A DNA stretch of 64,000 nt from positions 2,969,765-3,033,764 of the forward strand of contig NZ_BEYR01000001.1 in NCBI RefSeq assembly GCF_002933815.1. Direction: 5' to 3'. Of the stretch, positions 5,705 to 64,000 are shown piece by piece; within the stretch, counting starts at the first letter, position 1, and the number at the start of each line of letters is the position of its first letter. The notes beneath the pieces were generated by a model, which made no database searches, had not been told where the DNA came from, and saw only the letters and a program-made list of their open reading frames with translations. Source of the DNA: Sphingobacterium sp. HMA12 (GTDB lineage Bacteria; Bacteroidota; Bacteroidia; Sphingobacteriales; Sphingobacteriaceae). The position numbers and the translations under genes are program-made.

Positions 5705-6109
5705 TTAAGCACCCGGAAATTTGCTCATATCCATATAAAATATCTCCCAGGTATGGCCATCATAATCTTCCACCTTTCTTAATTGCATAAAACCATGATC
5801 CATCATTGGCATAGGCTCTATTCCTCCTGCTGCTAGTCCTTTTTCAACAATTTCATTTACCCGCTCCACACTCTCCACCGAAAGTGCAAATAGTGCGGCA
5901 ATGTGACTTTTTGTATCCGCTATAGGCTTATTGGTAAAGGATTTAAATTTATCATGTGTCATGATCATTACAAAAATATGCTCACTCCATACCATACATT
6001 TAGAATCATCATCGCAAAATTGTTGATTTACCTCAAAACCCATTTGAGTATAAAAATCCATTGATTTGTTTACATCTGCTACAGCGAGATTAATAAATAC
6101 CTGTTTCAT
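5705..6109 (-). CDS. VOC (glyoxalase/bleomycin-resistance fold) protein
   Basis: A 134-residue single-module vicinal-oxygen-chelate protein. The first beta-alpha-beta unit is FINLAVADVNKSMDFYTQMGF, and the end, VEDYDGHTWEIFYMDMSKF, is typical of the extradiol/glyoxalase-like subgroup that works as a dimer. In these proteins the metal ligands are His and Glu; the final HTWEIF pair fits one ligand set, but no substrate can be assigned. It is cytoplasmic and has no signal peptide. The ATG gives the usual family N terminus. Confidence 0.85.
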   Translation of the reverse strand: MKQVFINLAVADVNKSMDFYTQMGFEVNQQFCDDDSKCMVWSEHIFVMIMTHDKFKSFTNKPIADTKSHIAALFALSVESVERVNEIVEKGLAAGGIEPMPMMDHGFMQLRKVEDYDGHTWEIFYMDMSKFPGA

Positions 6110-6227
6110 CTTTTAAATTTTTAATTGCTATTGATAACACAAAATTGCGCATTATGGTTTACAAAAATCTTGGCCTATGCCAAGATTTAAAGATTCTATA
6201 AACATGCTCTGCATTGAGATTCTTGTT

Positions 6228-6656
6228 TTAATACTTTTCTAATTTAAGTGTAATAAATTGTTCCCAATCACCATTTTCTGCTTGCATATACCAATTCCCC
6301 ACAAGTATCGAACAGTTATTATTCATTCGCCCATTAAACTTTATTCCATCCCCCTCAATAGTAAAAATGCTATTGGTCAAATTCCCGGTCATTACTCCGC
6401 TTTCCCCCCTCGAATTTGCATATTGCATCTTCACTTTATCTCCTGGTAGCATGGTGATCATTTCAAATGTTTCACTACGTTCGTCTCCTATGTTAACATT
6501 CGCTTTGTGTAAAATACAGTTTTGATCGAGTATAAACTCATAAGAATCAACACCGACTAAAGATACGGTTTTTGCACCTACCCGTACTTCTCCTGATGTT
6601 TTCCAGATACCAATAAATGTGCGATAATTGCTATCTCTAATTTTGTCCATTGTCAT
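6228..6656 (-). CDS. Small hypothetical beta-rich protein
   Basis: This 142-residue protein has no signal peptide or membrane segment. The pattern FIGIWKTSGEVRVG, then DSYEFILDQNCILHKANVNIGDERSETFEMI in pieces, and a terminal WYMQAENGDWEQFITLKLEK resembles small calycin or DUF1579-like barrels that start with a GxW motif; the likeness is weak and I do not assign a function. The first ATG is used, and Met3 (6650) is an alternative. It may be co-transcribed with the downstream VOC gene 118 bases away. Confidence 0.65.
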   Translation of the reverse strand: MTMDKIRDSNYRTFIGIWKTSGEVRVGAKTVSLVGVDSYEFILDQNCILHKANVNIGDERSETFEMITMLPGDKVKMQYANSRGESGVMTGNLTNSIFTIEGDGIKFNGRMNNNCSILVGNWYMQAENGDWEQFITLKLEKY

Positions 6657-53881: not shown

Positions 53882-54036
53882 CGCTCATTGATCTATAGGT
53901 GCTGGGCACCTGGTTATATTTCAAAGTTAGCTGATTTAGCGTATGTTAGGCTTGCCTTATGACAAGAATATGAAAAGTGATGGATTTCCCCTATCATTGC
54001 ATATAAAGTTGAATTTATGTAGGTTTAAAGGATAAA

Positions 54037-54071
54037 TTCTAAATTTCTTCAAATTTCAACGCTTATCTTAG
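54037..54071 (+). promoter_or_regulatory. 11-bp phased repeats and promoter before RR1
   Basis: TTCTAA (54037-54042) and TTCAAA (54048-54053) are spaced 11 bases and are followed by the -7-like TATCTTAG (54064-54071), just before the ATG at 54076. OmpR-family regulators bind direct repeats of this spacing; related sets lie upstream of two other units to the right. Confidence 0.5.
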
Positions 54072-54075
54072 CATC

Positions 54076-54768
54076 ATGAAGATACTGATCATCGAAGACG
54101 AGGAAGAACTGGCCGAAGGTATAGCAACATACCTCTGTGAGCAACAGTATTTATGTGAGTTTGCCAGCACCCTGCACGATGCATTGGATAAAATCCAGCT
54201 GTTTCAGTACGACTGCATCCTACTCGATATCGGCCTACCCGATGGCAATGGTTTGCGCCTGTTGGAAGAACTGAAAAAAGACAACAAGCAAGATGGTGTC
54301 ATTATTATCTCGGCAAAAAATGCCTTAGATGATAAAATTGCCGGACTCCAGCTCGGCGCTGACGATTATCTTACCAAACCATTTCACCTTTCAGAACTTG
54401 CCGCAAGGATCTATTCCTTGATGCGACGGAAACAATTCAACAACTCCAATATTGTCAATATCAATGAAATACAGATTAACCTGCTAGCGAAAACAGTACT
54501 TGCAAACAACCATCCTGTGATCTTGACAAAAAAAGAGTTTGATCTGCTGATGTTTTTTATCGGAAACAAAAACCGGGTCATCTCCAAAAGCACCTTGGCC
54601 GAACACTTATCGGGCGATATTGCCGATATGCTGGATAATCACGACTTCGTCTATGCCCATGTCAAAAACCTCAAAAAAAAACTGCAGGATGCCGGAACCT
54701 ATCCGTATATAAAAACGGTATACGGTACAGGGTACAAATGGGAACATCAAAGTGATACCAGCATATGA
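54076..54768 (+). CDS. OmpR/PhoB-type response regulator (first)
   Basis: The 230 residues form a receiver (E7/D8 acidic pair, phospho-acceptor D51 in CILLDIGLPDGNG, K in DDYLTKPFHL) and a winged-helix DNA-binding domain (about 130-225, ILTKKEFDLLMFFIGNKNRV; YPYIKTVYGTGYKWEH). It overlaps the kinase gene by 4 bases, forming a two-component operon. The likely targets are the units with repeats at 54.0, 56.1 and 61.7 kb. Confidence 0.93.
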   Translation: MKILIIEDEEELAEGIATYLCEQQYLCEFASTLHDALDKIQLFQYDCILLDIGLPDGNGLRLLEELKKDNKQDGVIIISAKNALDDKIAGLQLGADDYLTKPFHLSELAARIYSLMRRKQFNNSNIVNINEIQINLLAKTVLANNHPVILTKKEFDLLMFFIGNKNRVISKSTLAEHLSGDIADMLDNHDFVYAHVKNLKKKLQDAGTYPYIKTVYGTGYKWEHQSDTSI

Positions 54769-56051
54769 AGCCACTGCTCAGGAAAATAACCAATCCCTTT
54801 CTAATCTATGTGTTGATCGTACTTGGCATTAGCGTCCCCGTTTACTATGTTGTTATCGACGGCATCTGGAAAAGCGAGCTAGATGAACACAATAAAATTA
54901 TTGTTGAAAAGACGGCATTCGAACTAAACAGCCTACGGCTTTCCGACGAAAAATTGCAGCATAGCATCACCATCTGGAATAGCATACAGCCCAGCACAGA
55001 TATCCGTAAGCCCGGGGCAAACGATTCAGGCAAAGACAGTATTTACACGATAGAAAAACAAAAATCTTATGTTTCGCATGAAAATATAGATCGTTTCCGA
55101 TGTCTCTCCACGGTGGTGCAGATCAATGGTGCCCCCTATCGTTTTACTGTCGAAACCAATATTGAAGAGTCCATAGAGACGATCGCCGCAATTGCAGCGA
55201 CCACACTCTTTTTCTTTATTATGCTTGTTTTGGGGCTACTGATCCTTTCAAGAAGGATATCGACAAAAGTTTGGGCCCCCTTTCGGGATACTGTCGAAAA
55301 ATTAAAATCGTTTAACCTCAACAGTCAACATCATATAACCTTTCAACAGACCGATACCATCGAGTTCCATGAGCTGAATCAATCTTTGGAAAAATTGCTC
55401 AAAAAAAATGTAGCTGTTTACCGCTCCCAAAAAGAATTTACGGAAAACGCCTCCCATGAATTGCAGACTCCTCTGGCTATCCTCAAAAATAAACTTGATA
55501 TCCTACTACAGTCACCCAACCTAACTACAGAACAATACCTACAAATTGAAGATATGCACAAGGCACTGAGCCGGAGTGCACGTATTAACCGAAATCTCCT
55601 TTTGCTGGCAAAAATCGACAATAGTCAATTTGAGCATTCAGAGATACTGCGGCTGGACAGCCTGTTATTACAGTCCATTGCGACCATGCTCGAACATTTT
55701 GAACAAAAACAGCTTACAGTTGAAAAACAGATTCAGCCGGATGTACTCTCTACCGGCAATAGCAGCCTGACCGAGATCCTGATCAACAATTTATTGTTGA
55801 ATGCCATTCGTTATAGCCCATCAAATAACTTGATCGCCATCCAACTGAACAAAACCCATTTAGAAATCAGCAATCCGGGAGAAGTCGCCCTCGACTCGGA
55901 CATGCTATTCAAACGCTTCTCCAAGCTTTCAAAAAACAAACTGGGAAGCGGACTGGGACTGGCGATTGTGCTGGAAATCGCTCAATATCAAGGATGGACG
56001 GTCCAATATCGTTTCGACAACAAAAGACACATTTTTTCTGTCCAATTCTAA
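54765..56051 (+). CDS. Sensor histidine kinase (first)
   Basis: The 428-residue kinase has two membrane helices (about 12-32 and 140-160) framing a periplasmic segment of some 105 residues. HisKA contains ENASHELQTPLAILKNKL with His231 as phospho-acceptor, and HATPase_c has TEILINNLLLNAIRYSP and SGLGLAIVLEIAQYQGW. No clear HAMP domain is visible between TM2 and HisKA, only a short coiled linker. The short periplasmic part suggests direct sensing of a small ligand or envelope state. Confidence 0.92.
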   Translation: MKPLLRKITNPFLIYVLIVLGISVPVYYVVIDGIWKSELDEHNKIIVEKTAFELNSLRLSDEKLQHSITIWNSIQPSTDIRKPGANDSGKDSIYTIEKQKSYVSHENIDRFRCLSTVVQINGAPYRFTVETNIEESIETIAAIAATTLFFFIMLVLGLLILSRRISTKVWAPFRDTVEKLKSFNLNSQHHITFQQTDTIEFHELNQSLEKLLKKNVAVYRSQKEFTENASHELQTPLAILKNKLDILLQSPNLTTEQYLQIEDMHKALSRSARINRNLLLLAKIDNSQFEHSEILRLDSLLLQSIATMLEHFEQKQLTVEKQIQPDVLSTGNSSLTEILINNLLLNAIRYSPSNNLIAIQLNKTHLEISNPGEVALDSDMLFKRFSKLSKNKLGSGLGLAIVLEIAQYQGWTVQYRFDNKRHIFSVQF

Positions 56052-56054
56052 AAA

Positions 56055-56082
56055 TTCCAAATATCTTCTAAATTGCTTCGCA
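56055..56082 (+). promoter_or_regulatory. 11-bp phased repeats before the outer-membrane receptor
   Basis: TTCCAA (56055), TTCTAA (56066) and TTCGCA (56077) lie exactly 11 bases apart. A further TTCTAA (56046-56051) overlaps the stop of the kinase gene. The ATG of the receptor is at 56114. Confidence 0.5.
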
Positions 56083-56113
56083 GCTTTACGCCGTACTATT
56101 TAAGAAGAAAGCT

Positions 56114-58549
56114 ATGAAATCCACTACGCGCACAAGACCGCAACTTTGTTTATTTCTCTTCATATTACTGTGTTTGGTAGGATCCCTGCCGACGACAGCA
56201 CAGGTGAACAAAGCCACGATTTCGGGCATCGTCAAAAGCCAAGTAGCCAACAGCCCGCTACCTTATGTCAACCTTGTCCTCAAACAGACAGCAGACAGCA
56301 GCTTCGTGACCGGAACAGTTAGCGACGATGCAGGGCGGTATAAACTTAGTAGTGTCGCCAGTGGCCATTATACGCTGGAAGTTTCCTATACAGGATTCAA
56401 AACCGTCAAACAGTCCGTTTTTGTCGGAACACTTTCTCCTTTTCTTGAACTGCCCACAATCGTTTTATCGGAGACTGCTACACAATTGGAAACCGTCGAA
56501 GTAAATGCACCACGCAGTGGAATTAGCCAACAATTGGATAAAAAAACCTACACTGTCGCTGACAACATCAGTCAAAGTGGTGGTTCGGCGCTGCAACAGA
56601 TGCAAGCGCTGCCCGGAGTCACTGTTCAGGACGGCAAAGTACTGTTACGCGGAAATGAAAAAGTCGCTATTTTAATTGACGGCAGACAGACTGCCATGAC
56701 TGGGTTTGGTAGTCAGACAGGGCTCGACAATTTACCTTCCTCCGCTATCGAAAAAATTGAAATTATCAATAACCCCTCAGCAAAATACGATGCCAATGGA
56801 AATGCCGGAATTATCAATATTATTTTGAAGAAAAACAAACAGCTGGGATTCAATGGTAAGGTAGGCTTCACTACCGGGCTGGGCTCCCTCTGGGAGAGAA
56901 AGGAAAACCTGCCAACCATCCGGCCACAGTATACCCTGACTCCAAAAATCAACCCCACTCTTTCCCTGAATTATCGAAAAGATAAAGTCAACATCTTTGT
57001 CCAGGCGGACAACCTGTATACACATACGTTAAACAAGAATGAATACGTGACACGTACCTACGATGATGGCACCCTGATCAAATCGCAGTTAAAACGTAAC
57101 AGAAATACCAATTTTCTGACCACAAAAGCCGGAGTAGACTGGACCATAGATGCGCAAAATAGCCTAACCATCTCAGGCATGTATGGTAGCGAAAAAATTA
57201 TAGATCGTGGTGATCAACCTTTTTTTAATGGTGATTTATCCCAGCGCAACCGCCTTTGGCAGTTTTTGGAAGACGAGCTAAAAACGACAGCAATGGCGAC
57301 AGCCTCTTTCCAGCATAAATTTAAAGAAGCGGGCCATCTGCTCAATGCAGGTTTTAATTATACCTTCCATCGCGAAGACGAAAAGTATTTCTACGATAAC
57401 TACCTCCCCAATAGTACCGGAAAAGACGCATTCAAGCTGCTCTCTGACGAACAAGTATATGATTTTAACCTCGATTACATCAAACCTCTGAAATATGGAC
57501 GGATAGAAACCGGAATCAAATTGCGTGACAGAAAAATACCTACCAATATGCAGTTTATTCCCGGCACAAATTCCGTATTGGATAGCAATGCAGGTGGTTG
57601 GGCCACTTATAAAGAGTTGATCCCTGCCTGGTACGGAAACTACATTTATGAAAATGAGAAATGGGAAGCCGAATTGGGCATAAGGCTTGAATACGTGCGG
57701 ATCCAATATGATGTCAATCCCAACCATCCTACGTATAAAAGCGATGGATACAATTACACACAGCCCTTTCCGAATGTACGTCTGGCATACAAAATGGATG
57801 ACAACAATAAGCTTTCCATCTTCTATAACCGTCGTGTAGACAGGCCCAATGAGGTCGATATCCGTATATTCCCAAAGTATGATGATGCCGAAATTATCAA
57901 GGTCGGAAACCCAGCCTTAAGGCCTCAGTTTACCAATTCCATCGAACTTGGATACAAACGCAACTGGACCAAAGGCTACCTATACACAGCGCTTTTCCAC
58001 CGCTTTGCCGATGGAACAATCAGTAGAATCTCCACGACAAGTCCAGGTAGCAATTGGATTTACGCCGTATTCCAAAATGCCGGTCGCAGCTACAATACCG
58101 GTATGGAAGCAATCTGGAACCAAAAGGTCAGTGATAGCTATTCTTTTAATATCAACGGTAATCTCTACCGCAATCAGATCAATGCCTTTACGGTGGAAAA
58201 CCTATATCCCCAACCCAGTCTATTTTCGGCAGAGAAACAGACCCTGATTTCCGGTAACCTAAAGTGGAACAATACCTTTCACCTCAAATCCGGCTGGGAT
58301 GCCCAATTGACAGCGATCTACCTTGCCCCCGACCTGATCCCACAAGGCAAGTTGCTTGCACGGTTTTCCATCGATGCCGGAGTCAAAAAAAGTATACAGC
58401 ACAACAAAGGAGAAATATTCCTAAATGCCACAGACCTTCTCAATACGATGGTCAACAAACGCGAAATACAGGGAATGGGCTTCCGCTATACCAGTGCCGA
58501 CTATTACGAAACTCAGGTTATCCGCATCGGTTACAATTACAAATTTTAG
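56114..58549 (+). CDS. TonB-dependent-receptor-like outer-membrane beta-barrel protein
   Basis: This 811-residue protein has a signal peptide ending TTAQ, then a carboxypeptidase-regulatory-like domain (about 35-115, ISGIVKSQVANSPLPYVNLV). A plug-like domain follows (about 130-240, QMQALPGVTVQDGKVLLRGN; GNAGIINIILKKNKQLGFNG), then a C-terminal OMP_b-brl_3-like barrel ending in an aromatic residue (IGYNYKF). The family is common in Bacteroidota and is not SusC-type. Its substrate is unknown. It starts 62 bases after the kinase stop and is followed by a PAP2 gene. Confidence 0.9.
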   Translation: MKSTTRTRPQLCLFLFILLCLVGSLPTTAQVNKATISGIVKSQVANSPLPYVNLVLKQTADSSFVTGTVSDDAGRYKLSSVASGHYTLEVSYTGFKTVKQSVFVGTLSPFLELPTIVLSETATQLETVEVNAPRSGISQQLDKKTYTVADNISQSGGSALQQMQALPGVTVQDGKVLLRGNEKVAILIDGRQTAMTGFGSQTGLDNLPSSAIEKIEIINNPSAKYDANGNAGIINIILKKNKQLGFNGKVGFTTGLGSLWERKENLPTIRPQYTLTPKINPTLSLNYRKDKVNIFVQADNLYTHTLNKNEYVTRTYDDGTLIKSQLKRNRNTNFLTTKAGVDWTIDAQNSLTISGMYGSEKIIDRGDQPFFNGDLSQRNRLWQFLEDELKTTAMATASFQHKFKEAGHLLNAGFNYTFHREDEKYFYDNYLPNSTGKDAFKLLSDEQVYDFNLDYIKPLKYGRIETGIKLRDRKIPTNMQFIPGTNSVLDSNAGGWATYKELIPAWYGNYIYENEKWEAELGIRLEYVRIQYDVNPNHPTYKSDGYNYTQPFPNVRLAYKMDDNNKLSIFYNRRVDRPNEVDIRIFPKYDDAEIIKVGNPALRPQFTNSIELGYKRNWTKGYLYTALFHRFADGTISRISTTSPGSNWIYAVFQNAGRSYNTGMEAIWNQKVSDSYSFNINGNLYRNQINAFTVENLYPQPSLFSAEKQTLISGNLKWNNTFHLKSGWDAQLTAIYLAPDLIPQGKLLARFSIDAGVKKSIQHNKGEIFLNATDLLNTMVNKREIQGMGFRYTSADYYETQVIRIGYNYKF

Positions 58550-58570
58550 GATCAATTAAACACTTTATCT

Positions 58571-59491
58571 ATGATCAAACCGGCCTTATTGTTGCTTGTG
58601 GCAGCATTCTTCCCATTTAACAGTGCTATCACTCAAATATTAAAAGAGCCCAAAACGACGATTATCGAACAACCTGGAGATACGTTGGCATTGGTCAAAG
58701 CCCCCCGTTACGTAAATACGGTCAACGATTTTCACCCCTATGTCCCCTTCCGGAAAAATAAATCAAACGCGAATTTATGGCCAAGACAGGGCGATAGCAT
58801 AGTCAATAATGCGTCAAAGATGCCTACGAATTCGTTCTATCAACCCCGATACACGAATTTTATTGTCCCGGCCGTCTTCATCGGGTTTGGTGTAGCCAGT
58901 TTAGGCAGCGATGCCCTTAAAAAGCTAAATTCGTCCACCAAAGATGAGATTGCCGAACATCGATTGAGCCATCTGACCTTGGATAATTATAGCCAATATG
59001 TCCCGGCACTTATGGTCTACGGACTCAATGCATTTGGTGTAAAAGGTAAAAACAATTTTAAAGACAGAACGGTAATTTACCTCACCTCACAATTGATTTC
59101 CGGAGCGATGGTGATTCCGTTAAAACACCTGGTAAAAGAAGTTCGTCCAGACAGTTCCGATGCACTATCTTTTCCCTCGGGACATACAGCTACAGCATTC
59201 TCTTCCGCTCAATTTATGTATCACGAATATCGAGACACAAACTTTTGGCTGAGTATATCGGGCTATCCTTTCGCTTTATTTACAGGTATTTACCGAACCA
59301 TCAATAACCGTCACTGGGTAGGTGACGTTGTCGCTGGGGCCGGCTTCGGCATATTATCGACCGAACTCGCCTATTGGCTCCATCCCAAAATCAATCAGCT
59401 GCTGTTCAAAGATAAAACGAACTCCTCTTCCATGGTCATGCCTTTTTATCAGAACCGGCAATTTGGGTTAAGTTATACGCGGCAATTTTAA
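58571..59491 (+). CDS. PAP2-family phosphatase
   Basis: This 306-residue protein has an N-terminal signal and the complete PAP2 motifs: LKHLVKEVRPDSS (KxxxxxxRP), SFPSGHTATAF (PSGH) and YRTINNRHWVGDVVAGAGFG (SRxxxxxHxxxD-like, with Arg, His and Asp). It probably dephosphorylates lipid pyrophosphates or lipid A-type substrates at the periplasmic side. It sits 21 bases after the receptor gene, so the two are likely one operon, as seen in other Bacteroidota. Confidence 0.92.
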   Translation: MIKPALLLLVAAFFPFNSAITQILKEPKTTIIEQPGDTLALVKAPRYVNTVNDFHPYVPFRKNKSNANLWPRQGDSIVNNASKMPTNSFYQPRYTNFIVPAVFIGFGVASLGSDALKKLNSSTKDEIAEHRLSHLTLDNYSQYVPALMVYGLNAFGVKGKNNFKDRTVIYLTSQLISGAMVIPLKHLVKEVRPDSSDALSFPSGHTATAFSSAQFMYHEYRDTNFWLSISGYPFALFTGIYRTINNRHWVGDVVAGAGFGILSTELAYWLHPKINQLLFKDKTNSSSMVMPFYQNRQFGLSYTRQF

Positions 59492-59544
59492 AGAATTCTA
59501 CTCCGGGGTAACAAAAGAGTAGTCGTCAAATAACGAAACCAAGG

Positions 59545-59561
59545 TAAATTTGATAACTTTG
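59545..59561 (+). promoter_or_regulatory. Two overlapping -7 candidates before RR2
   Basis: TAAATTTG (59545-59552) and TAACTTTG (59554-59561) both match TAnnTTTG, 84 and 75 bases before the ATG at 59636. A TTG-started longer frame from 59564 overlaps this promoter region and is rejected. Confidence 0.5.
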
Positions 59562-59635
59562 TCTTGCACGGCCCATATCTTGTGGTCGAAGTCACTACTG
59601 AGGTTGAGGTATTAACGAATAATCTTTCGCTTTGT

Positions 59636-60316
59636 ATGAAAATTCTTTTAGTCGAAGATGATGTCCGTGTCGCAGGACTAATAAAACGCGGCCTGGATGA
59701 GAATGAATTTAAGACCGAAATTGCCTATGATGGGATTTCCGGGAAGAAAATGGCCTTACAGCACCACTTCGACCTGATCATTACCGACATTGTATTACCC
59801 AAGATGGATGGCCTCGATCTCTGCAAGGAAATCCGCCATATCAAACCCGACCTGCCCATTATCATGCTTACCGCACTCGGTACCACAGATGATAAAATCG
59901 AGGGTTTTGATGCCGGAGCGGACGATTATCTGGTCAAACCTTTTGAAATGCGTGAGCTATTGGCCCGAATACGGGTGCTGCTCAAACGCTATCAGAAACA
60001 AGAAAGCACCACGGGAACCATACTGCGTTATGCAGATCTTGAAATGAATCTGCATACCAAAGATGTAAGGCGTAATAAGACTGAAATCAGTCTGACCCCC
60101 AAAGAATTCAAACTACTCCACTACCTGTTACTGCACCCCGAACGTGTACTGTCAAGAATGGAGATTGCCGAAAAAGTTTGGGAGACCCATTTTGATACCG
60201 GTACCAATTTTATTGATGTCTATATCAATTACCTCCGAAAAAAAATAGATAGAGATTTTGATAAAAAATATATCCATACCAAATCTGGAATGGGCTTTAT
60301 TTTAAAACAGGACTAA
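59636..60316 (+). CDS. OmpR/PhoB-type response regulator (second)
   Basis: From the ATG at 59636 the protein has 226 residues: a receiver with D8/D9, phospho-acceptor D51 (LIITDIVLPKMDG), K in DDYLVKPFEM, and a winged helix (about 130-225; SLTPKEFKLLHYLLLHPERV; YIHTKSGMGFILKQD). Its TAA stop shares one base with the ATG of the next gene (60316). The likely targets are the adaptor/pump genes downstream, or its own operon. Confidence 0.93.
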   Translation: MKILLVEDDVRVAGLIKRGLDENEFKTEIAYDGISGKKMALQHHFDLIITDIVLPKMDGLDLCKEIRHIKPDLPIIMLTALGTTDDKIEGFDAGADDYLVKPFEMRELLARIRVLLKRYQKQESTTGTILRYADLEMNLHTKDVRRNKTEISLTPKEFKLLHYLLLHPERVLSRMEIAEKVWETHFDTGTNFIDVYINYLRKKIDRDFDKKYIHTKSGMGFILKQD

Positions 60317-61692
60317 TGCAAATCAGAACGCGAATTACCATACTGTTTACAGTCGTCACGGCGACCATCCTGATGGTATTTGCCTGCACGGTCTATTTTT
60401 CTGCCGTAGAGAATAGGGAAAACGAATTTTATGCCCTGCTAAAAAAAGAAGCCTATACCAAAGCAAATCTTTTTTTAAATGCACGGGTCGACAAAAAAAC
60501 ACTAGAAGATATTTACCACAACAACCGAAAAATCCTCAATGAGGTCGAAGTAGCAATCTATGACACCAGTTTTAAGCTATTGTATCACGATGCTGTAGAC
60601 ATTGATTTTGTCAAGGAGACACCTACCATGCTGCGGGATATTGTTAAAAAAAAGGAAATTGGATTTTATCAGGACAAATGGCAAGTGATCGGCATCACCT
60701 ATGCGTACAACAACACGAATTTTATCATCACCGCAGCTGCTTATGATCAATATGGGTATAACAAACTTCAAAACTTGTTATCGACCATCATTATTGTTTT
60801 TATTTTTGCGGTCTTTTTAAGCTATGCCGCCGGAATATTTTTCTCAAAAAAAGTATTTCGCCCCATTCAGGAAATGACACGAAAAGTCAAAAATATATCG
60901 GCCAACAGCCTAGATGCAAGACTTCACAGCACAGGCAATAAAGATGAACTATCCGAGCTGGCCAACACCTTTAACGATATGCTGAACCGCCTTGAAAACT
61001 CCTTCGACGCGCAAAAGCATTTTGTCTCCAATATTTCACATGAACTGCGTACCCCCTTGGCCGCAATGATAACCGAACTCGAAATTTCCACGAATAAAGA
61101 CCGCAGCACAGCTGAATATAAAGCCATCATTGACAACATTTTAAACGACGCCCAAAAACTCAAAAAACTATTCAACAGCTTACTGGATTTTGCCAAGGCA
61201 AGTTACGATAGCTCAGAAATTTCCTTCAAGCCCCTACGTGTGGATGAAATTCTGCTCGACGCCTGTCAACAAATATTGCAGGCCAATCCAAATTATAAGC
61301 TCGATATTTTTGTTGATCCGGTATTGGAGGACGAGCACATGATTTCGACTGTCGGTAATGAATACCTGCTCCAGGTCGCTTTTGTGAATTTAATTGAAAA
61401 TGCCTGTAAATTTTCCGACAACCAAAAATGTTCCATAGCGATTAAATCCAGTGGAACGTCCATACAGCTGGAATTTAAAGATGACGGCATAGGCATCGAA
61501 CCTGACGATCTTGAACGTATATTCACCCCCTTCTATCGGGGCAACAACAAAGCGTACAGCGAAGGAAACGGGATCGGCCTCTCGCTGACCAAAAAGATTA
61601 TTCTACTTCATCAAGGCGAAGTCCTTGTCCGTTCAACAAAACATATCGGTAGCGTCTTTCGGATCAACCTCCCCCATTCATCAGCACGCTAA
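60316..61692 (+). CDS. Sensor histidine kinase (second), with HAMP
   Basis: The 458-residue kinase has two membrane helices (about 7-29 and 155-178) around a periplasmic domain of some 125 residues. A HAMP domain (about 180-232, FRPIQEMTRKVKNISANSLD) comes next. HisKA contains HFVSNISHELRTPLAAM with His242, and HATPase_c has EYLLQVAFVNLIENACKFSD and NGIGLSLTKKIILLHQG. This is a standard EnvZ-like layout, distinct from the first kinase. The signal is unknown. Confidence 0.93.
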   Translation: MQIRTRITILFTVVTATILMVFACTVYFSAVENRENEFYALLKKEAYTKANLFLNARVDKKTLEDIYHNNRKILNEVEVAIYDTSFKLLYHDAVDIDFVKETPTMLRDIVKKKEIGFYQDKWQVIGITYAYNNTNFIITAAAYDQYGYNKLQNLLSTIIIVFIFAVFLSYAAGIFFSKKVFRPIQEMTRKVKNISANSLDARLHSTGNKDELSELANTFNDMLNRLENSFDAQKHFVSNISHELRTPLAAMITELEISTNKDRSTAEYKAIIDNILNDAQKLKKLFNSLLDFAKASYDSSEISFKPLRVDEILLDACQQILQANPNYKLDIFVDPVLEDEHMISTVGNEYLLQVAFVNLIENACKFSDNQKCSIAIKSSGTSIQLEFKDDGIGIEPDDLERIFTPFYRGNNKAYSEGNGIGLSLTKKIILLHQGEVLVRSTKHIGSVFRINLPHSSAR

Positions 61693-61697
61693 TAAAA

Positions 61698-61756
61698 TTC
61701 TAATATTTTTCTAAAGCCTCTCTAACGGCCTTCCAGCAAAGGCATGAATAGCTTTG
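61698..61756 (+). promoter_or_regulatory. Three 11-bp phased repeats plus promoter before the RND adaptor
   Basis: TTCTAA (61698), TTCTAA (61709) and CTCTAA (61720) are exactly 11 bases apart. A -7 element, TAGCTTTG (61749-61756, exact TAnnTTTG), lies 24 bases beyond the last one. This is the clearest of the three repeat sets in this part of the window. Confidence 0.6.
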
Positions 61757-61832: not shown

Positions 61833-62999
61833 ATGGCCTTTAGAAAAAAAACAATGGTTAACCGTGCTATCAAAATTCCTATCCGCCCCCTTAGATCTAT
61901 GGGTTGGATCACTGTCCTCATGATCATGCAAGCATGCAATCCACAGTCAACAGTGCCTGCAGAAGATTCTGCTGCCCTGCATTTTGCGGGAGATACCCTG
62001 ACAATCAATGCGCAAGCGCCACTACTGTCTAAGATTAAGTGTACTGCTGTCGTCCAGCAAGCACATCAATTGAAGTTTAAAACTGCTGCCATGGTCAAAA
62101 TCATTCCCAACAGTTATGTTGAAATCCCCATGCCTTTTGCGGGGCGGGTTGTCAAATCCTATGTCAATCTTGGACAGGAGGTAGCTGTCAATACAGCGTT
62201 ATTTTCGATCAGTTCTTCCGATTATTTCGAAGCACAACGGGCCTACCTCGATGCCAAGCAGACCTATACTCTGGCGGCAAGTGTCTTAAAACGACAAAAA
62301 GATTTGCTCAGTCATGGTGTCGGTATTCAAAAGGAACTTGAGGAAGCGGAAACCAATTTTGCCATCAGCAACACAACGCTCAATAATGCAGCTGCTGCCT
62401 TAAGAATATATGACAACAACCCTGCACAGGCTATACTTGGCCAGCCCTTACTTGTCCGTTCACCCATTCGGGGGGAAATCTTAAGCAATACGATCGTGCT
62501 AGGCCAATACAATAAAGAAGATGCCCCCGCTTTACTCCGAATTGCAGAGCTTTCAAAAGTATGGGTTTCAGCCTACATCAAAGAAAAAGATCTGAGTGCC
62601 ATAGATCAGATCCGCACTGTGGAAGTCCACATTGACAGTCAACCCGCCAAAAAGCGGCAAGGAAAAATTGTCCATATCAATCAGTTTGTAGACGAAGCAA
62701 ACCGCAATATCGAAGTGCTGGTTGAATGTGACAATAAAGACCGGCTACTCAAACCCGGGATGTATGTCAATACACAATTTGAGCAGGCAGCAAGAGCCAG
62801 TATATTTATTCCCGCCAAAGCCGTACTCCAATATAACGACAAAAGCTTCGTCTGGGTACGCCTGGCACCCCATAGATTTATAAAGCGTTATGTACAGACC
62901 GGTGTGACCGAAAATGAGCAGATTCAGATTGTACAGGGATTGTCCGAAGACGAACAGATCATCAGTGAGGGTGCATTTTATCTGCTGGCAAACAACTAA
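61833..62999 (+). CDS. RND periplasmic adaptor lipoprotein (CusB/CzcB type)
   Basis: The 388 residues carry a lipobox (LMIMQAC) after about 35 residues, so the true start may be Met8 (61854) or Met23. The mature protein has barrel-sandwich parts (VEIPMPFAGRVVKSYVNLGQ, VRSPIRGEILSNTIVLGQYN), a helical hairpin (SDYFEAQRAYLDAKQTYTLA) and a beta barrel ending GLSEDEQIISEGAFYLL. It links a CusA-type pump, encoded 25 bases on, to an outer-membrane channel. Confidence 0.9.
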   Translation: MAFRKKTMVNRAIKIPIRPLRSMGWITVLMIMQACNPQSTVPAEDSAALHFAGDTLTINAQAPLLSKIKCTAVVQQAHQLKFKTAAMVKIIPNSYVEIPMPFAGRVVKSYVNLGQEVAVNTALFSISSSDYFEAQRAYLDAKQTYTLAASVLKRQKDLLSHGVGIQKELEEAETNFAISNTTLNNAAAALRIYDNNPAQAILGQPLLVRSPIRGEILSNTIVLGQYNKEDAPALLRIAELSKVWVSAYIKEKDLSAIDQIRTVEVHIDSQPAKKRQGKIVHINQFVDEANRNIEVLVECDNKDRLLKPGMYVNTQFEQAARASIFIPAKAVLQYNDKSFVWVRLAPHRFIKRYVQTGVTENEQIQIVQGLSEDEQIISEGAFYLLANN

Positions 63000-63024: not shown

Positions 63025-64000
63025 ATGAAACAACTTGTAAGCCAGATCATCGCCAAGAGATGGATTATCGCCGCCGCTTTTCTCCTTATTGCATTTTTCG
63101 GCTATTATGCATGGAAACAGCTTTCAGTTGAGGCCTATCCCGATATTGCAGACGTGTCCTCACAAATCGTCACCCAGGTGCCGGGCCTGGCCGCCGAAGA
63201 AATGGAACAACAGATAACAATTCCCATTGAGCAGGCCATCAATGGTCTGCCCGGAATGGAAGTCATGCGCAGCAAAACTACATTTGGACTATCCATGGTC
63301 ACCATTGTATTTAAAGACGGGGTTGACGACTATTGGGCCAGGGCCCGCATACAGGAGCGCCTTGCGGATCTGAGCCTCCCCTGCGGTGCGGCACCGGGCC
63401 TAGATCCCCTTACCTCGCCGACGGGTGAAATCTTTCGGTACATTCTTGAAAGCAATACCCAAGATCTTCGGAAATTGACCGAACTTCAAAACTTTGTCAT
63501 TATCCCCAAAATCAAACAGGTGGCAGGGGTTGCCGATGTAACCAATTTTGGGGGTATCACAACACAGTTTCAGGTCGAACTGGATCCTAAAAAACTCGAT
63601 CAATATGAAGTTTCTCTAAGCGAAGTAACCGCAAAAATAGAAGCCAATAATGCCAATGCCGGCGGAAGCATGATGAACCGGGGCGACCAATCGTATGTGA
63701 TCCGGGGCATCGGCCTTGTCAAATCATTGGATGACCTCGCTAATATTGTTGTCAAATCGGTCAATGGAAATCGCATTTACATGCGGGATCTGGGTCGGGT
63801 AAAACTCGGCAATCTTGCCCGCAAAGGAGCCTTAGGCTACAGCGACAAACGGGGAGCTAATTATTCCGATAATATTGAAGGGATTGTCCTGCTGTTAAAG
63901 CATGAAAATCCCTCCACCGTACTCGCAGGTGTAAATACTGCCGTCGATGAGCTTAACAGTAAAATCCTCCCCAAAGATGTCAAAATACACGTCGTCTTAG
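63025..64000 (+). CDS. CusA/CzcA-type RND permease, cut off by the window end
   Basis: The frame is open from the ATG at 63025 to the last base (325 codons and one base). It begins MKQLVSQIIAKRWIIAAAFL (TM1), then the heavy-metal-efflux-type PGLAAEEMEQQITIPIEQAI and GMEVMRSKTTFGLSMVTIVF, and YWARARIQERLADLSL. In CusA proteins these segments belong to the first porter domain. No channel gene is seen in the window, so the matching TolC may be downstream. Metal or drug substrate is open. Confidence 0.92.
   Translation, partial: MKQLVSQIIAKRWIIAAAFLLIAFFGYYAWKQLSVEAYPDIADVSSQIVTQVPGLAAEEMEQQITIPIEQAINGLPGMEVMRSKTTFGLSMVTIVFKDGVDDYWARARIQERLADLSLPCGAAPGLDPLTSPTGEIFRYILESNTQDLRKLTELQNFVIIPKIKQVAGVADVTNFGGITTQFQVELDPKKLDQYEVSLSEVTAKIEANNANAGGSMMNRGDQSYVIRGIGLVKSLDDLANIVVKSVNGNRIYMRDLGRVKLGNLARKGALGYSDKRGANYSDNIEGIVLLLKHENPSTVLAGVNTAVDELNSKILPKDVKIHVVL

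Follow-up and report, generated by a model that had tools for sequence, protein, structure and literature searches.

A 64,000-nucleotide stretch of the genome of Sphingobacterium sp. HMA12 (hereafter, the window; contig NZ_BEYR01000001.1, positions 2,969,765 to 3,033,764) encodes two two-component systems, each a pair of response regulator (RR) and histidine kinase (HK), together with an outer-membrane receptor, a PAP2-family phosphatase, and a heavy-metal pump of the resistance-nodulation-division (RND) type with its membrane fusion protein (MFP) adaptor. Here, we describe two candidate operators in this region, a four-unit array of phased direct repeats before the pump (site A) and a two-unit motif before RR1 and before the receptor/PAP2 unit (site B), and argue, with a probability of about 0.8, that they mark two adjacent, separately wired regulons with look-alike half-sites, one assigned to RR1-HK1 and the other to RR2-HK2. 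An earlier, sequence-only reading of the window had seen one shared repeat before three transcription units and had joined the receptor, the phosphatase, and the pump into a single circuit. The motifs, the number of units, the distance to the promoter -7 box, and the phylogenetic partners all differ between sites A and B, leaving the single circuit unsupported and pointing instead to two parallel regulons, the pump array belonging to site A and the repeats before RR1 and the receptor to site B.

By direct reading of the sequence, all the hexamers on which the single circuit had been built are present: TTCTAA (54037) and TTCAAA (54048) before RR1; TTCCAA (56055), TTCTAA (56066), and TTCGCA (56077) before the receptor/PAP2 unit; and TTCTAA (61698), TTCTAA (61709), and CTCTAA (61720) before the RND adaptor, where an additional unit, CGCTAA (61687), brings the array to four units (61687, 61698, 61709, and 61720), not three. 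Their resemblance to OmpR/PhoB-type operators, that is, direct repeats at ~11-bp steps upstream of promoters, with four units at site A and two at site B, was correctly perceived, and phylogenetic footprinting supports all three sites; both motifs are kept at orthologous loci in related genomes, although conservation of the receptor site does not extend to its third hexamer (56077).

A repeat density above chance holds for three-unit arrays, which are enriched (5 found vs 0.17 expected; 0/100 shuffles), this pattern having been picked after the data were seen, and fails for two-unit matches. TTCTAA-N5-TTCTAA with up to two mismatches is no more frequent in the window than in shuffled sequence (15 found vs 13.5 expected), and exact pairs show no genome-wide enrichment (2 sites vs 4 for the reversed control), so that the density of the two-unit pattern was discarded as an uninformative test of function. 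Such counts are what would be expected if the repeats were functionless products of chance or of AT-rich composition, an explanation that we consider extremely improbable: site A has kept nearly every base across Bacteroidota, and its distance to the promoter is fixed. The pump array is real beyond doubt, its score being 52.4 bits and its E value 3e-15 for the window and 3e-13 for the genome; the RR1 and receptor sites are credible because they are conserved in related genomes, not because of density.

The consensus of site A is YTCTAATnnnn, repeated four times at an 11-bp step. An array profile (A1, R1) was built from 17 sites, among them both sites of this genome, and finds only two strong sites in the 6.47-Mb genome (E ~1e-13), one before the pump and the other before mgtC, the next best match having an E of 0.31; both being training sites, the informative part of the scan is that no third site comes anywhere near the two. 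The sole other exact TTCTAA-N5-TTCTAA pair of the genome is part of the four-unit array located ~153 kb from the pump array, before mgtC-mgtA, the products of which are recognized by Pfam MgtC and, for the Mg2+ P-type ATPase MgtA, by TIGR01524 (1276 bits, cut-off 611). The main partner genes of the pump-type array are these mgtC-mgtA genes, which lay outside the view of the sequence-only reading. Promoters of Bacteroidota carry TAnnTTTG as their -7 element. In 76 of 82 array sites, a match to it of at least 5 of 6 letters starts exactly 29 nt past the first base of unit 4; a control stretch gave 0.37 sites per position. At this spacing, the -33 element would be placed at or just past unit 4, which fits a class II activator, and we infer activation rather than repression at site A.

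Searched for exact matches to the four-unit pattern, GTDB representative genomes gave at least 120 stretches, of which 80 listed loci were examined: 67 non-tandem arrays of Bacteroidota and 13 controls (simple tandem repeats or non-Bacteroidota). Among these listed matches, 63 of the 67 Bacteroidota arrays have an RR2/HK2-like pair at most 3 kb upstream and/or homologues of mgtC, mgtA, MFP, RND, or outer-membrane factor genes downstream (mgtA 30, mgtC 29, MFP 24, RND 19), compared with 0 of the 13 controls; the controls (tandem repeats such as TTCTAATCTCG, or matches in other phyla) were treated as chance occurrences, and none of them has the partner genes. The array hosts, again among the matches listed, include Bacteroides, Phocaeicola, Prevotella, Dysgonomonas, Chryseobacterium, Elizabethkingia, Flavobacterium, Myroides, Pedobacter, Mucilaginibacter, Chitinophaga, Hymenobacter, Flectobacillus, and Thermoflexibacter. 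The recognition helix FDTGTNFIDVYINYLRKKID is near-invariant in 36 array-adjacent regulators, and the helix of RR1 differs from it.

Around the array, gene order is variable among congeners and the partner genes are constant. The array directly follows HK2 in 13 congeners and in other families and precedes mgtC in 8 species; the order RR2-HK2-array-mgtC-mgtA is found in congeners G003 and G009, the latter with an additional array before a separate MFP-RND, and RR2-HK2-array-MFP-RND in G006, G010, G011, and G028, while G033 carries RR2-HK2-array-mgtC-mgtA-MFP-RND as a single run. Counting this genome, 36 congeners were compared: HK2 and a strong array occur together in 14, neither occurs in 19, HK2 alone in 2 (G016, with a frameshifted RR2, and G032, an incomplete assembly), and the array alone in 1; HK2 is thus encoded by 14 of 15 array-bearing congeners. 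Nine array-bearing congeners lack an RR1-HK1 orthologue (one of them, G015, also lacks HK2), and RR1 was rejected as the pump regulator on this phylogenetic distribution. In two related congeners, G016 (L035) and G005 (L036), RR2 is frameshifted ahead of its DNA-binding helix (region ~L035:9766-10444), the pump and the pump array are both gone, and just a remnant of the PAP2 gene follows HK1; G005 still keeps its mgtC array.

A separate observation concerns G015, which carries an orphan four-unit array (L150; G015:C4:104848, - strand; 21/24 letters) adjoining genes that neighbour mgtC in the Sphingobacterium sp. HMA12 genome. This species possesses no close mgtC or RR2-HK2 orthologue, and the array is apparently a fossil operator.

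Site B, the two-unit motif AAATTCnAAATTTCTTCnAAATTG, occurs both ahead of RR1 and immediately 3' of HK1, followed by a -7-like box that lies 15-16 nt past the first base of its second unit. The copy before RR1 is conserved in L035-L038, with variants in L040 and L041, and the copy directly after HK1 in L038-L042. With the site-B model, the pump array reaches 11.5 bits, compared with 19.7 and 19.1 bits for the training sequences before RR1 and the receptor, and the site-A model, run on the window, matches neither of the latter two sites; by these cross-scores, and by unit number, -7 distance, and phylogenetic partners, sites A and B are to be regarded as separate motifs. Outside the training set, a third copy in this genome (G000:C1:2880463; L145:1961-1984) precedes a second PAP2 gene and a NIPSNAP-domain gene, and this locus may also belong to the RR1 regulon. 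Other non-training copies precede PepSY-like and outer-membrane protein (OMP) genes in G036 and in G016, where the OMP gene is gone from the RR1 locus, DUF347 and PepSY-like genes in G056, and an outer-membrane-factor/MFP/RND operon in G021; several of the best non-training matches have -7-like boxes at 15 nt. Overall, the sequence evidence for site B is good where RR1 and the receptor unit are concerned, and moderate as regards the wider regulon.

The -7 boxes before RR1 (window 54064-54078) and before the MFP gene in L037/L038 (L037 ~5920-5937) end ~4 nt from the ATG, which predicts leaderless or near-leaderless transcripts.

A single OmpR-type regulator, RR1 or RR2, acting on all three units via TTCTAA-like repeats would account for the common half-site core TTCnAA, the common 11-bp step, the adjacency of the genes, and the weak score of the B model on the pump array. 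We nevertheless regard such a circuit as very unlikely, because the A model finds nothing at the RR1 and receptor promoters, site A is kept in the nine congeners without RR1-HK1, site B before RR1 survives in G016 and G005, where RR2 is broken, the -7 spacings differ (29 vs 15-16 nt), and the recognition helices are unlike.

Weak array matches (TTCTAATCAAA TTCTAATCTAA), followed by poorer units, are also found directly 3' of paralogous kinase genes in the genus (L285-L297), with TAnnTTTG most often 17 nt, not 29, from the start of the fourth register. From these TTCTAATCAAA-TTCTAATCTAA repeats, a clade of Bacteroidota regulators seems to share TTCTAAT as a half-site, which would explain why one motif was perceived at three promoters, and the sequences suggest that unit number and spacing distinguish the related systems. 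A common half-site is also what partial cross-talk would predict, with each regulator mainly using its own sites, able to bind those of the other, and contributing to an overlapping envelope/metal response; the likeness of the half-sites and the weak B-model score on the pump array agree with this possibility, and Garber et al. reportedly described, in 2018, look-alike motifs common to several metal-responsive systems. Differences in spacing and in the number of units would restrict productive cross-activation, and we consider cross-talk of this kind rather unlikely.

We thus favor two separately wired regulons. Phosphorylated RR2 (RR2~P) would form two tandem dimers on the four-unit array, at position -33 of a Bacteroidota promoter, and activate the CzcBA-type efflux pump and, via the second array ~153 kb away, mgtC-mgtA, and the periplasmic PDC-type domain of HK2 would most likely read divalent-cation status (Mg2+ shortage or an excess of competing metal) or envelope damage. 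RR1 would bind the two-unit site B upstream of both its own operon and the receptor/PAP2 unit, and RR1-HK1 would drive an envelope-modification response. The motifs, the rigid -7 spacing, the phylogenetic partners, and the common recognition helix are shown by the sequences, and the binding of RR2 to the array and of RR1 to site B is proposed on this basis.

Several points weigh against this interpretation. The Fisher test by which the array tracks HK2 among the 36 congeners (p 4e-7) ignores the relatedness of the genomes, and HK1 is also weakly correlated with the array (p 0.013). In G032, the incomplete assembly, HK2 is present and the array undetectable. Site B is short, with a best genome-wide E of ~0.01 here, and the evidence for it is partly circular; given the likeness of half-sites A and B and the 11.5-bit B-model score on the pump array, cross-binding is possible. 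Finally, a PDC fold matched at Z scores of 7-10 does not tell which ligand is bound.

The N-terminal region of HK2, including the periplasmic domain, is predicted with fair confidence to adopt a PDC/PAS-type fold (pLDDT 85, pTM 0.68); the sensor domain belongs to no convincing Pfam family apart from HAMP. Among solved structures and models, the closest matches of the predicted sensor include a WalK model (Z 13.5), the PhoQ sensor (Z 9.8, 97 residues, rmsd 3.1 A), WalK sensors (Z 9.1-9.4), and CusS (Z 7.5). Together with residues H91, D92, D97, E101, and D144, which are conserved across the phylum, these predicted features are compatible with cation sensing. Within the two-regulon reading, the array could be an operator for heavy-metal (Cu/Zn/Cd-type) excess, not Mg2+ shortage, with mgtCA induced secondarily against metal-Mg2+ competition. 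RR2 and HK2 score best with the CzcR/CzcS and CopR models, the pump is of the CusA/CzcA type, and the sensor also matches CusS; against this, the regulator and kinase scores all fall below the family cut-offs (RR2, 226.8 bits to TIGR01387, cut-off 279.2; HK2, 211.3 bits to TIGR01386, cut-off 292.55), the array stands directly before mgtA at several loci in Bacteroides, Prevotella, Muribaculaceae, and others, and PhoQ is a better sensor match than CusS. We lean against this variant while taking it as a serious possibility.

Like enterobacterial PhoP/PhoQ, the RR2-HK2 regulon combines an OmpR-family regulator, direct repeats at an 11-bp step, and a predicted PDC-type sensor fold with mgtC and an Mg2+ P-type ATPase as likely targets, both lying behind the array in this genome and widely, probably under RR2 control. 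Enterobacterial PhoP targets mgtA and mgtCBR through a PhoP box of two (T/G)GTTTA units separated by N5, whereas site A consists of four YTCTAAT units; further differences are the -7 promoter of Bacteroidota, the heavy-metal RND pump as a co-target, and the failure to reach the PhoP/PhoQ family models, PhoP and PhoQ being absent among the best 25 families listed for RR2 and HK2. With CusRS, CopRS, and CzcRS, it shares the location beside a CusA/CzcA-type pump, the best family-model scores, and a PDC-like sensor as in CusS, MFP and RND genes lying directly downstream behind the array and probably under its control; it differs in its sub-threshold scores, the apparent co-regulation of mgtC-mgtA, and the phased direct repeats in place of the CusR/CopR boxes known from Proteobacteria. 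RprY was rejected as the identity of RR2 (155 bits, cut-off 370). HK1 passes the NCBIfam model of the PorY family, known from PorX/PorY of Porphyromonas gingivalis, but is paired with an OmpR/PhoB-type regulator gene, and site B neighbours PAP2, OMP, PepSY, and RND genes, not type IX secretion genes. Another two-component regulator of Bacteroidota that has been studied across a whole genome, and that has many targets in the membrane, is PhoPR of Riemerella anatipestifer; DAP-seq gave TTTAACA as the core of its motif, and the paper names mgtC only when discussing Salmonella (PMC9603813). It was rejected as the known regulator of site A because this core differs from TTCTAAT (PMC9603813).

No description of the site-A motif or regulon was found in the literature searched, subscription papers being mostly outside that search, and this putative Mg2+/metal regulon of RR2-HK2 and site A, phylum-wide in its spread, appears to be undescribed; it resembles PhoPQ in its targets and has a predicted sensor fold of the PhoQ type. 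Tentatively, and at somewhat less than even odds, we propose that RR2-HK2 and the four-unit array are the ancestral, phylum-wide divalent-cation regulator of the Bacteroidota, a functional counterpart of PhoPQ derived from the CusR/CzcR lineage, that couples Mg2+ import by MgtA/MgtC to CzcA-type export through a fixed operator geometry on the -7 promoter of the phylum. Few regulator binding sites are known in Bacteroidota, whether gut commensals (Bacteroides, Prevotella) or opportunists (Elizabethkingia, Chryseobacterium); an operator defined almost to the base and held at a constant distance from the promoter, together with a regulon of two targets, provides a handle on Mg2+ and toxic-metal handling in these bacteria and allows prediction of the regulon from sequence alone.

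Table 1. Genes and candidate regulatory elements of the two proposed regulons in the window
Feature	Position	Strand	Support
Site B copy 1, two-unit motif AAATTCTAAATTTCTTCAAATTTC before RR1	54034..54057	+	19.7 bits with model R2 (a training sequence)
-7-like box TATCTTAG, 16 nt from start of site-B unit 2	54064..54071	+	5/6 consensus letters
RR1, OmpR/PhoB-family response regulator, PmrA-like	54076..54768	+	Pfam Response_reg + Trans_reg_C
HK1, sensor kinase, NCBIfam PorY family	54765..56051	+	NF052314, 407 bits, cut-off 350
Site B copy 2, AAATTCCAAATATCTTCTAAATTG before receptor/PAP2 unit	56052..56075	+	19.1 bits with model R2 (a training sequence)
Outer-membrane beta-barrel protein	56114..58549	+	Pfam CarboxypepD_reg + Plug + OMP_b-brl_3
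PAP2-family phosphatase	58571..59491	+	Pfam PAP2, 58 bits; weak LpxE similarity, 26 bits, cut-off 177
RR2, OmpR/PhoB-family response regulator, CzcR/CopR-like, proposed site-A binder	59639..60316	+	Pfam
HK2, HAMP/HisKA/HATPase sensor kinase, periplasmic PDC/PAS-type sensor	60316..61692	+	Pfam; predicted structure
Site A, four-unit 11-bp phased array CGCTAATAAAA TTCTAATATTT TTCTAAAGCCT CTCTAACGGCC	61687..61730	+	Profile match
-7 box TAGCTTTG (TAnnTTTG), 29 nt from start of array unit 4	61749..61756	+	
RND periplasmic adaptor, CzcB/CusB-like	61833..62999	+	Pfam HlyD_D23; TIGR01730 above cut-off
RND pump, CusA/CzcA heavy-metal type	63025..64000	+	Leaves the window at its end; complete in L003

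Outside the three promoters, the window contains a three-unit TTCTAA-like match with three mismatches (TTTTAATACTTTTCTAATTTAAGTGTAA, 6226-6253) that neither profile recognizes. Both RR1-HK1 and RR2-HK2 pass the Pfam gathering scores as OmpR/PhoB-family two-component systems (receiver and winged-helix Trans_reg_C; HisKA/HATPase kinase). At the level of named families, RR1 remains under the NCBIfam PmrA cut-off (169 vs 330 bits) and below that of PhoP (NF008078, 129.5 bits, cut-off 336), and HK1 below that of PhoQ (51.7 bits, cut-off 497). Orthologues of HK1 are found in 6 congeners and in other families, and the pump homologues in L038 and L156 reach 930 and 906 bits, respectively, to TIGR00914 (cut-off 701).

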